Source: Bacteroidota bacterium (GTDB taxonomy: Bacteria > Bacteroidota > Rhodothermia > Rhodothermales > UBA10348). From it: a DNA stretch of 50,085 nt. Both the position numbers and the translations under genes were made by a program. Shown here one piece after another: positions 10,323-13,283 of this stretch. Below the pieces are notes generated by a model. The model did not search any database. It was given only the letters and a program-made list of their open reading frames with translations, and was not told the DNA's origin. The stretch covers positions 1 through 50,085 of the forward strand of contig JACZYD010000006.1 of NCBI GenBank assembly GCA_022571255.1. Reading direction: 5' to 3'. Numbering within the stretch: the stretch's first letter is position 1; the number at the start of each line of letters is the position of its first letter.

Positions 10323-11126
10323 TCAGGCATCTTCCACTTCAACGCCAACCTGTCTTCGTAGACGATTTATGATTGTTCTCAGGCGTGTATATACGTACTT
10401 GTGATTTTCGAACTGCATGATTTTTGCGATCTGGATCGCCCTCATACCATGCTCGAAGCGTAAAAGTACCAGAAGCTGATCTTCTGTATCCAGTTCCTTT
10501 ATTGCCTGATTCAACCGGGAAGACTGTTCCTCAGATTCATCCTTCCCACCGAGATCGTAAGAAAGTGTGTCTACGATTGGAAATGCGCCTTCGGCCGAAC
10601 TGTCGTCAATAGACAGGACGGGCCGATTGGCTCGAAGTGCCGCTATCAGATGCCACCTTTTACTGACAGATAACAAGTCGTTGATTTTCTCAATAGATCG
10701 GGCCACATCCAGCGATGAACATGCCATTTCATGTCTTCCCTGTATGTTATCGGCGATTTCCGACTGGGTCATCCGTTCCTGGTAATAATATCTGAATACG
10801 AGCTGGCCGAGTTTGTCCAGTTTGGAAATAACCGAATTGGGTACCGAAGTCACTCGGTTTTTCCGGAATCGATCCCGACACGCATTCGCCACGACAACGC
10901 TCAACCACGGGGTCAGCTCGCTGTTGATCCGAAAACGCTTCAGAGCCTGAAAGTTATTCTGGCGGAGTCGCTCGCAGATCGATGTATAGGTTTCCATGAC
11001 TTCATCCGGATCAGAAAGGAATCGTCTGATCATCCGTAACAGCACGGGTGTATATCGGTCCAACAGAGCTGAATAGCCGGCCGCAGGATCTGCTTTGAAT
11101 TTCTTTATGAGGGCGGAATCGGTCAT
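10323..11126 (-). CDS. Sigma-70-like (ECF-type) transcription factor
   Basis: The N-terminal half resembles sigma region 2 (YSALLDRYTPVLLRMIRRFL, then WLSVVVANACRDRFRKNR). The C-terminal segment resembles region 4 (LDTEDQLLVLLRFEHGMRAIQIAKIMQ followed by a basic helix). The stretch between them is about 120 residues, longer than in ordinary ECF factors, and contains a second helix-turn-helix-like piece (RMTQSEIADNIQ). Three in-frame ATGs (11186, 11156, 11126) occur in a 30-bp triplicated segment. I chose 11126 because the repeats add only repeated MTDTALIKN-type peptide. It heads the run containing cdsA, mutL, tilS and hpt. Its target promoters are unknown. No anti-sigma gene is adjacent. Confidence 0.75.
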   Translation of the reverse strand: MTDSALIKKFKADPAAGYSALLDRYTPVLLRMIRRFLSDPDEVMETYTSICERLRQNNFQALKRFRINSELTPWLSVVVANACRDRFRKNRVTSVPNSVISKLDKLGQLVFRYYYQERMTQSEIADNIQGRHEMACSSLDVARSIEKINDLLSVSKRWHLIAALRANRPVLSIDDSSAEGAFPIVDTLSYDLGGKDESEEQSSRLNQAIKELDTEDQLLVLLRFEHGMRAIQIAKIMQFENHKYVYTRLRTIINRLRRQVGVEVEDA

Positions 11127-11190
11127 CCTATTCTTTGTGAGGGCGGTATCGGTCATCCTATTCTTTATGAGGGCGGTATCGGTCATCCCA
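11101..11190. repeat. 30-bp tandem triplication over the sigma-factor start
   Basis: Three exact-period copies at 11101-11130, 11131-11160 and 11161-11190, differing at only a few bases. On the minus strand each copy holds a purine-rich AAAGAATAGG, an ATG and the codons for M-T-D-(T/S)-A-L. The gene therefore has three equivalent starts in the same frame. Confidence 0.95.
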
Positions 11191-11278: not shown

Positions 11279-11355
11279 GCGCTTGTAGCTCAGTTGGATA
11301 GAGCGCTGGATTCCGGTTCCAGAGGCCGGAGGTTCGAATCCTCCCAAGCGCGCCA
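11279..11355 (+). tRNA. tRNA-Arg (anticodon CCG)
   Basis: A full 77-base cloverleaf with CCA encoded. The acceptor stem GCGCTTG (11279-11285) pairs with CAAGCGC (11345-11351), followed by discriminator G and CCA. The D-loop has AGCTCAGTTGGATAGAGC. The anticodon stem CTGGA/TCCAG closes the loop TTCCGGT with CCG at 11313-11315. The T-arm GGAGGTTCGAATCCTCC is canonical. It reads CGG arginine codons. Confidence 0.98.
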
Positions 11356-11432
11356 TTTGATATAACACGTCTCCCCGAGGGGCAGGGAGAACTGCGTCGG
11401 CAATCTCGAGGAAAGGAATCGAGATCGCCTAA

Positions 11433-11479
11433 GGGCACGAGGGGGGGTAAAAGGGGTGCTTCCTCGAGGGAAAGGAAGC
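11433..11479. repeat. 47-bp direct repeat, copy 1
   Basis: Starts GGGCACGAGGGGGG and ends with the GCTTCC/GGAAGC hairpin. The second copy at 11540-11587 differs at about three positions. The two starts lie about 107 bp apart, with a different hairpin between them. Confidence 0.92.
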
Positions 11480-11539
11480 GGTCACACTGAATCGCAACTA
11501 CGTTGAGGGATCGTCGAGGGATCGTTGCGACAATGCGGA

Positions 11540-11587
11540 GGGCACGAGGGGGGAGTAAAAGGGATGCTTCCTCGAGGGAAAGGAAGC
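11540..11587. repeat. 47-bp direct repeat, copy 2
   Basis: Second copy of the repeat at 11433-11479, one base longer. It carries the same loop TCGAGGGAAA inside the same 6-bp stem. Confidence 0.92.
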
Positions 11588-11975
11588 AAATCGTGATGCC
11601 GGAGAATAACCGCGAGGATCGGTCGTTCGTTTTTCACGGCGATCTTCGAGGGGTGGGAGAAAATCACCGTTCGGCTCACCCGGGAGAGCAGATCACAAGG
11701 TCGATGAATCGATCCCTGTTCGTACTCTGATACCAGGATACCCAACTGACAGACAATACATGAATGAACTGCCAGAGGCCTTCACGAAGAACGTGCCAAA
11801 CTCAGGAAGAACAGGATATTTTTGGTAATAAAGCCCAGTAAACACAAAAAACGAGGTTTTTTTCGTAACCCGAAACATGGATTCTCTTCCGTGTTTTCGA
11901 AATGAGAATCAATTATCTCTCTGTATCGAAACGAGACGGACAAAAATGTCCCAGATTGACCCGATATCAGGGAAA

Positions 11976-13283
11976 TCATGTTTTGTGCGGAAGGCCTGGA
12001 ACCAATTGACCCTCAGATGCAGCGATAACCGTCGCAACGGTCGCGTCTCCCGTTACGTTCGTAACCGTACGCAGCATATCGAGAATTCGATCCACACCCA
12101 GAATCAGGGCGATTCCACCGCTTGGTACGCCAACAGACTCCAGGATTATGATCAGCATGATAATACCGGCTCCGGGCACAGCCGCCGTGCCAATGGACGC
12201 CAGCATCGCTGTAAACACGATCGTCAACTGTGCCCCGATGTCGAGATTCATTCCAAGAGTCTGTGCGATGAACACGGCAGCGACGGCCTGATACAGGGCC
12301 GTACCGTCCATGTTGATTGTCGCTCCCATGGGCAGAACAAAGGAGGAGACTTCTTCGGAAACGCCAATATCGCGCTCTGCGACCTCCATGGTGACCGGTA
12401 AGGTTGCCCCGCTGGATGACGTGGAGAACGCGAGCAGTTGTACCGGTAAAATGGCCTTTGCAAAATCCTTGATCTTCAGCGGCGTCAAGAAATGAAGGAG
12501 CGCTGTATAGGTCAGAATCATATGTATCATGAGGCCCGCGACCACGACAGCGGAATAGAACCCGAGCGCTGAAATCAGTTCGAACACCGAACTCAGGTCA
12601 TCTTTCGCAATGGTCGTGATCACGTCAGCCAGTAATGCAAATACGCCGACAGGAGCCATCATCATGATGATGGCAACCATTTTGATCACCATGTCGTTTA
12701 CGCTGCGAAAAAACTTCAGAAGAGGTCTGGCTTTCTTTTTGGGCACCATGATGAGAGCAATCCCCGCGAAGATGGCGAAGAATACCATCTGTAACATCTT
12801 CCTGTTATCCGAAGCGGCGAAAACAATATTGTCCGGCACCATGTCCACAATGGGCTGCAATGGGCTTTTTGCTTCCGTCTGGGCGGCCGCAGCGGCCTGA
12901 CCGGTTGTGGCTTCGTCTGCATAAGTCTGCTGCAGCTGTTCACGCATCTCGGGTGGAACCGAACCTCCCGGTTCCAAAACGTTGACGAGCACCAATCCGA
13001 TCAGGAGCGCTACAAACGTGGTAGCCAGGTAAATACCAATGGTCTTGCCTCCGATGCGGGACAGTTTCCTCAGATCAGATAGCGACGCCACACCCGTAAT
13101 CAGCGATGATATGACAAGCGGCATCGCTATTAATTTCAGAAGAGACATGAAAATATCTCCAAAAGGAGCAATCCAGTCCGATGTAAACTGTCCCCAGCCA
13201 TTTGCCGCAGCCACGATTCCGAAGAGCAGACCCAGAACAAGGCCGAAAATTATTTGCCAGTGAAGTTGTTTGTACCAGGGCAT
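11976..13283 (-). CDS. Dicarboxylate/amino acid:cation symporter (DAACS family)
   Basis: Sodium- or proton-coupled transporter of the GltP/GltPh fold, 435 aa. It has hydrophobic helices throughout, the serine-rich hairpin FSTSSSGATLPVTMEVAE (HP1) and the ion-binding TM7 motif NMDGTALYQAVAAVFIAQ, with PGAGIIML (HP2) and a TM8 substrate region (LILGVDRILDMLRTVTNVTGDA). An aspartate within DRILDMLRT and the later N/T pattern fit glutamate/aspartate or C4-dicarboxylate uptake. The DMLRT sequence is usual for acidic amino acid carriers. It stands alone, with gene-free DNA on both sides. Confidence 0.93.
   Translation of the reverse strand: MPWYKQLHWQIIFGLVLGLLFGIVAAANGWGQFTSDWIAPFGDIFMSLLKLIAMPLVISSLITGVASLSDLRKLSRIGGKTIGIYLATTFVALLIGLVLVNVLEPGGSVPPEMREQLQQTYADEATTGQAAAAAQTEAKSPLQPIVDMVPDNIVFAASDNRKMLQMVFFAIFAGIALIMVPKKKARPLLKFFRSVNDMVIKMVAIIMMMAPVGVFALLADVITTIAKDDLSSVFELISALGFYSAVVVAGLMIHMILTYTALLHFLTPLKIKDFAKAILPVQLLAFSTSSSGATLPVTMEVAERDIGVSEEVSSFVLPMGATINMDGTALYQAVAAVFIAQTLGMNLDIGAQLTIVFTAMLASIGTAAVPGAGIIMLIIILESVGVPSGGIALILGVDRILDMLRTVTNVTGDATVATVIAASEGQLVPGLPHKT

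Follow-up and report, generated by a model that had tools for sequence, protein, structure and literature searches.

The window analysed here, a stretch of 50,085 nucleotides, corresponds to C157, a contig in a draft genome (G000) of 3.29 Mb and 99% completeness; those close relatives that have names are bins from metagenomes and bear the label Rhodothermales or Bacteroidetes. A tRNA-Arg with anticodon CCG was identified on the plus strand at 11279-11355 by ARAGORN and by Rfam (RF00005). Beyond it, on the minus strand, lies a gene for a sigma-70-like factor (10323-11186; Pfam PF04542, E 1.8e-6), and on the other side, also on the minus strand, a gene for a sodium:dicarboxylate symporter, SDF (11976-13283; Pfam PF00375, E 3.5e-123). 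The element described here occupies 445 nt (11356-11800) between the tRNA and the symporter gene, is supported by its fold and by comparative evidence, and is tentatively placed on the minus strand, where the symporter gene is immediately upstream. A Pfam search of the two ORFs that overlie the array of hairpins in this element gave no match, and BLAST found the array region to be single-copy in its own genome. At 11099-11190 a unit of about 30 nt is repeated three times in tandem, which gives the sigma-like factor a repeated N-terminal MTD(T/S)ALIKN; the true start of the protein is probably the third copy.

The original prediction of an array of hairpins at 11370-11587 was borne out: it contains five stems and a repeat of 47/48 nt, and A(A/G)GGA occurs nine times, above the level of shuffled sequences. 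The words begin at 11384, 11413, 11467, 11472, 11506, 11517, 11560, 11575 and 11580, against 2.4 expected from dinucleotide shuffles, none of 2000 of which reached nine; for the looser ANGGA the expectation was 3.1, and 0.15% of shuffles reached nine. The repeat copies at 11433-11479 (47 nt) and 11540-11587 (48 nt) differ by one mismatch and one gap of 1 nt, with the stem and the loop GCTTCCTCGAGGGAAAGGAAGC unchanged between them. All five stems are discernible in the sequence and in the fold of the minus strand. As read on that strand, the leftmost (11370-11390) pairs TCTCCC with GGGAGA around the loop TGCCCCTCG and has a U-rich tail, which gives it the appearance of a terminator. The next (11399-11429) pairs GGCGATCTCGA with TCGAGATTGCC and contains one A-C on the plus strand, equivalent to a G.U on the minus strand. 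Each repeat copy, for which no strand was designated, carries a hairpin GCTTCCT/AGGAAGC with the loop TTCCCTCG as read on the minus strand, and between the copies a minus-strand stem TCGCAAC/GTTGCGA (11492-11530) encloses two CCCTC words. GAGGG, or CCCTC on the minus strand, occurs nine times between 11377 and 11652 (starts 11377, 11439, 11466, 11505, 11516, 11538, 11546, 11574 and 11648). In the 410 nt 3' of the tRNA its nine copies compare with 1.9 expected, and the nine of ANGGA with 4.8 expected (p 0.04); GAGGG is the better word for this array.

Sponge RNAs such as CsrB and RsmX, RsmY and RsmZ consist of many hairpins that display one short word in their loops and act multivalently. The element shares this design of many hairpins with one loop word, and the nine ANGGA words in and beside the hairpins had led to the proposal that it traps CsrA. 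The rest of the comparison contradicts a true CsrB/RsmZ homologue acting on CsrA. A search for CsrA (PF02599) was negative in all 21 genomes examined, its own included, with the control positive in E. coli, B. subtilis and T. maritima (three of 14 named genomes). The only Rfam match in the whole window at gathering score was the tRNA, and eight loci searched at E ≤ 5 added three weak, unrelated matches, none of them to a Csr or Rsm RNA. The word conserved among relatives is YGAGGG instead of ANGGA, and the strand is probably the other one. Chiefly because csrA is absent, such a homologue is considered extremely improbable, and the proposed trapping of CsrA through ANGGA loops was not upheld. 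The broader idea of a sponge-like design survives in part, in that the hairpin array is genuine and a single loop word recurs across genera; its link to CsrA and ANGGA does not.

The tRNA-Arg and its flank were compared with those of 41 genomes, the flanks being read on the tRNA strand. Many members of an uncultured family of Rhodothermales were found to carry similar GAGGG hairpins followed by a conserved tail, AATGAACTG-N~12-CnAAGATGATGCCA on the tRNA strand. In the window this tail occupies 11743-11800; on the minus strand it reads TTTGGCACGTTCTTCG..CAGTTCATTCATG and forms the conserved core of the element, being its 3' tail if read on the plus strand. A sequence-only model of the core, R1, matched 22 of the 27 genomes of the family with one strong locus each. 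Since 19 of these loci had been used to build R1, the independent finds are those in G011, G012 and G106. A second match in the window genome was weak (E 0.004) and was not counted. R1 found no element in G017 and G008, both near complete, where the symporter gene follows the tRNA directly, and had no match in G004, G021 and G105 (62-87% complete). Beyond the family, two weak partial matches (E 0.0017 and 0.0023) were obtained when another 87 genomes from the order were searched, and two in the 217 non-family genomes among the 244 searched across the class (E 2.7e-4 and 9.9e-4), none of which were counted. No viral contig searched contained the tail pattern.

The element sits between the sigma factor with tRNA-Arg(CCG) and the symporter. 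The symporter is on its far side in 20 of 22 loci and the sigma factor past the tRNA likewise in 20 of 22, contig ends accounting for three or more of the four missing cases. In a relative from another family (L023) the order sigma factor, tRNA, symporter is kept and the element is absent. By this conservation the element is real, and it looks like an undescribed, family-specific structured RNA. One locus of the family (L010, in G010) has 3' of the tRNA a block with a terminator-like hairpin that is present twice, one copy being fused to a partial tRNA 3' end; there the core is kept and the GAGGG array is absent.

Across the 22 arrays TGAGGG occurs 38 times against 3.5 expected, CGAGGG 21 times against 4.6 and GAGGG 71 times against 20.5, while CCCTC has three copies on the plus strand, so that the words are strand-biased. 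The number of GAGGG words per locus ranges from 0 to 9, with none in two g3 genomes and in three g10 genomes, the latter having the core. The loops of several relatives (TTGAGGGTT, TTGAGGGGC, GAGGGGC) are without any GGA. Stems are entirely different among genera and the loop word is kept, as in CAGCCAGGCAAT(GAGGGGC)ATTGCTTGGCTG, TGATTCACAC(TTGAGGGGC)GTGTGAATCA and GCTCCCT(GAGGGGT)AGGGAGC. Of 93 GAGG(G/A) sites, 24 lay in strong stems, whereas 200 rounds of flank swapping between genera gave 9.9 on average and never more than 18. The core hairpin averaged -12.7 kcal/mol against -10.5 kcal/mol for swapped partners (best of 1000 rounds, -12.4), with several individual genomes ranking low against such partners. 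RNAalifold yielded zero consensus pairs on cross-genus alignments, probably because the stems of different genera diverge beyond what a sequence aligner can handle. Alignments within a genus did yield pairs in which both partners had changed; this was so for either strand and did not settle which one is read. An array with a recurring loop that is conserved across genera makes a multivalent structured RNA a fair reading.

A DNA element, in which a protein would bind repeated sites and the hairpins would be by-products, was also considered. The strand bias of the GAGGG words is compatible with this, and in 13 of the 22 loci TGAGAC stands 68-70 nt before TGGCA on the minus strand, the weakly conserved sequence in between having hardly any net indels or none, a pattern that resembles the spacing of DNA sites. 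Variation of stems between genera with retention of pairing is, however, the signature of an RNA, and a DNA element is accordingly thought improbable. In the g3, g5, g6 and g9 loci, the minus strand has GTCTCG and TGAGAC halves close to the stop of the symporter, with variable sequence between the two; this region may be a promoter, an RNA stem or both.

The strand was assessed from wobble pairs and from folding. Stems of a plus-strand RNA tolerate G-T (as G.U), whereas those of a minus-strand RNA tolerate what is written as A-C on the plus strand; the tRNA terminators, which certainly belong to the plus strand, served for comparison. A first tally gave G-T to A-C ratios of 2:11 for array hairpins and 16:0 for tRNA terminators, after rows had been sorted manually into the two types and those marked AFTER left out (pooled totals 20 G-T and 14 A-C). 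Strand-neutral folding gave 6:18 for the array, with 17 of 41 array mismatches being neither G-T nor A-C and the count varying with the choice of helix, and 9:0 for the terminators. Against a null G-T share of 0.52 the array ratio had a raw p of 0.006, and Fisher's test against the terminators gave 0.0002. One G-T in this array tally came from a tRNA terminator missed by the cut; with it taken out and sites common to related genomes counted once, p was 0.013. A-C pairs in the array correspond to G.U on the minus strand and the terminators show the opposite, which favours the minus strand. In folding, the plus strand of the array region was weakly better than shuffles (z -1.2), and that of the window element had a z of -1.1 in the comparison of 22 loci. 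The minus strand reached -6.0 for 11356-11620 and -6.6 for 11356-11800, where the centroid is near the minimum free energy structure, and had the lower z in 17 of 22 loci; a better z is partly expected on this pyrimidine-rich strand as an effect of composition. A minus-strand assignment is thus supported but not proven, and on sequence evidence the element is probably read from that strand, antisense to the tRNA.

The plus-strand RNA originally envisaged was not supported by either wobble pattern or fold. Its suggested co-transcription with tRNA-Arg is unlikely in most relatives, in which an intrinsic terminator with a T run separates the tRNA from the array; the window itself has no such terminator and there the suggestion retains some ground. 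A plus-strand RNA made with or after the tRNA could still be a convergent decoy resembling CsrB, its GAGGG loops trapping a protein other than CsrA, for instance an RRM protein. Besides the missing terminator in the window, this is consistent with GAGGG being the conserved loop word and with the finding that 11 of 13 genomes, the window genome among them, encode an RRM_1 protein. The wobble pattern, the plus-strand z and the terminators ahead of the array in most relatives argue against it, and the available part of the account of the Bacteroides RRM protein describes a preference for single-stranded regions of sRNAs and does not describe GAGGG loops (PMC11697453). Such a decoy is regarded as unlikely.

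Transcription from the minus strand is also compatible with a 3' untranslated region of the symporter mRNA that acts in cis, its hairpins protecting or destabilising the message or slowing transcription before the opposed tRNA, with no target in trans. The symporter is on the appropriate side in the 20 loci noted above, and in the genera where it could be read, 86-125 nt separate its stop codon from the core, both being on one strand. A U-rich hairpin is present on the minus strand at 11390-11370. Between 11150 and 12050 three terminator-like sites were found, all on the minus strand and none on the plus strand; on the minus strand the scan returned consensus matches alone. Scanning the minus strand of relatives ahead of the tRNA found no terminator. 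A cis-acting protector, however, would have no need of a loop word and a core that are both invariant, and L023, outside the family, keeps the same gene order without the element. A purely cis-acting role is accordingly a minority possibility.

The sequence of the loops on the minus strand is CCCUC, in most cases with a purine after it. YGAGGG was depleted upstream of start codons, with three occurrences against 10.4 expected (402 ORFs, approximately 0.55 Mb of the 3.29 Mb), and no Shine-Dalgarno signal was found before 146 starts of the window genome. Words resembling the Shine-Dalgarno sequence were likewise depleted upstream of the 402 ORFs. Hfq was found in none of 13 genomes; the presence of the RRM protein in 11 of 13 makes binding of a protein as likely as pairing with RNA. 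As a single target rpsU was considered and dropped: a Shine-Dalgarno sequence resembling the array words precedes it in several relatives (g5, g6, g7 and g9) and not in G000 or G001. Two other explanations of the tail were set aside by eye. In G005, G006 and g10 an AAG replaces the ATG of AATGAACTG and later frames stop at differing places, and the tail therefore contains no conserved ORF. As a sigma-70, sigma-54 or ECF promoter it lacks a second box at the proper spacing and is a weak possibility.

The reading that we prefer, although tentatively, is that the window contains a single copy of a structured RNA, hitherto undescribed and specific to the family, which is likely read from the minus strand 3' of the symporter gene and would act multivalently through identical loops. 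Such a small RNA could have a promoter to itself, or the RNA could derive from the symporter 3' untranslated region. Its 5' part would be the conserved core TTTGGCA..TTnG..CAGTTCATTG, and its body the hairpin array presenting one C-rich word, CCCUC with a purine, in the loops. These loops may pair with G-rich GAGGG stretches in other RNAs or, alternatively, a single RNA-binding protein may be bound at every loop. Conservation, synteny, the build of the array and the loop word are observations, whereas transcription, the 5' and 3' ends, an action in trans and a partner are inferences. Evidence against this reading comes from the depletion of YGAGGG before starts, the negative results for a Shine-Dalgarno signal and for Hfq, the terminator results on the minus strand, the g10 genomes with a core and no GAGGG, the two near-complete genomes in which the element is missing, the low rank of the core hairpin in single genomes and the cross-genus RNAalifold result.

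CcsR, or cuckoo, RNAs of alphaproteobacteria have C-rich loops. They are four sRNAs that arise by cleavage of a common transcript, which in addition codes for a DUF1127 protein (PMC10253847); repeated units in tandem are common to both systems, whereas here there is a single element with a sigma factor, a tRNA and an SDF symporter as neighbours. Among sRNAs whose loops contain UCCC, such as LhrC of Listeria, C-rich sites meet G-rich sites in mRNAs; LhrC has three such redundant sites per molecule, two of them in loops, and pairs with G-rich sequence at the Shine-Dalgarno (PMC4132741). The UUCCCUC loops of the window's minus strand contain UCCC, and a minus-strand molecule would carry several C-rich sites, up to nine instead of three, but the genome is without a Shine-Dalgarno signal and avoids GAGGG before starts. 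FopS sRNAs, which act with the RRM protein RbpB in Bacteroides, are from the same phylum, and a single RRM protein, with neither CsrA nor Hfq, is encoded in the window genome. FopS, which is characterised by a 41-nt RbpB motif, differs in its single-stranded seed with a terminator and its many copies per genome (PMC11697453), the present element being a hairpin array that is single-copy by BLAST and has no Rfam match. The element is classed as a putative multi-hairpin regulatory RNA and not as a member of CsrB, LhrC, CcsR or FopS, and no comparable RNA appeared in the portions available of the literature on small RNAs of Rhodothermales and Rhodothermus and on RRM proteins and sRNAs of Bacteroides.

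It is conceivable, if doubtful, that the element represents a global regulatory RNA of a class not described before, in a bacterial lineage that has neither CsrA nor Hfq nor a Shine-Dalgarno signal. Such an RNA would be encoded in one copy on the minus strand, and its up to nine identical CCCUC(R) loops would titrate an RNA-binding protein or G-rich parts of other RNAs, the number of loops varying between genera like an adjustable dose. The outcome also illustrates that, when a finding rests on a single sequence, comparison across genomes can alter its motif as well as its strand. Little is understood of how Bacteroidota and related bacteria regulate genes after transcription, given that most of them make scant use of Shine-Dalgarno recognition and that those studied here have no CsrA or Hfq either. 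An RNA that is conserved, present in one copy and built on a recurring loop of variable number offers a concrete handle on it, one that can be expressed, probed and used as bait for its partner.
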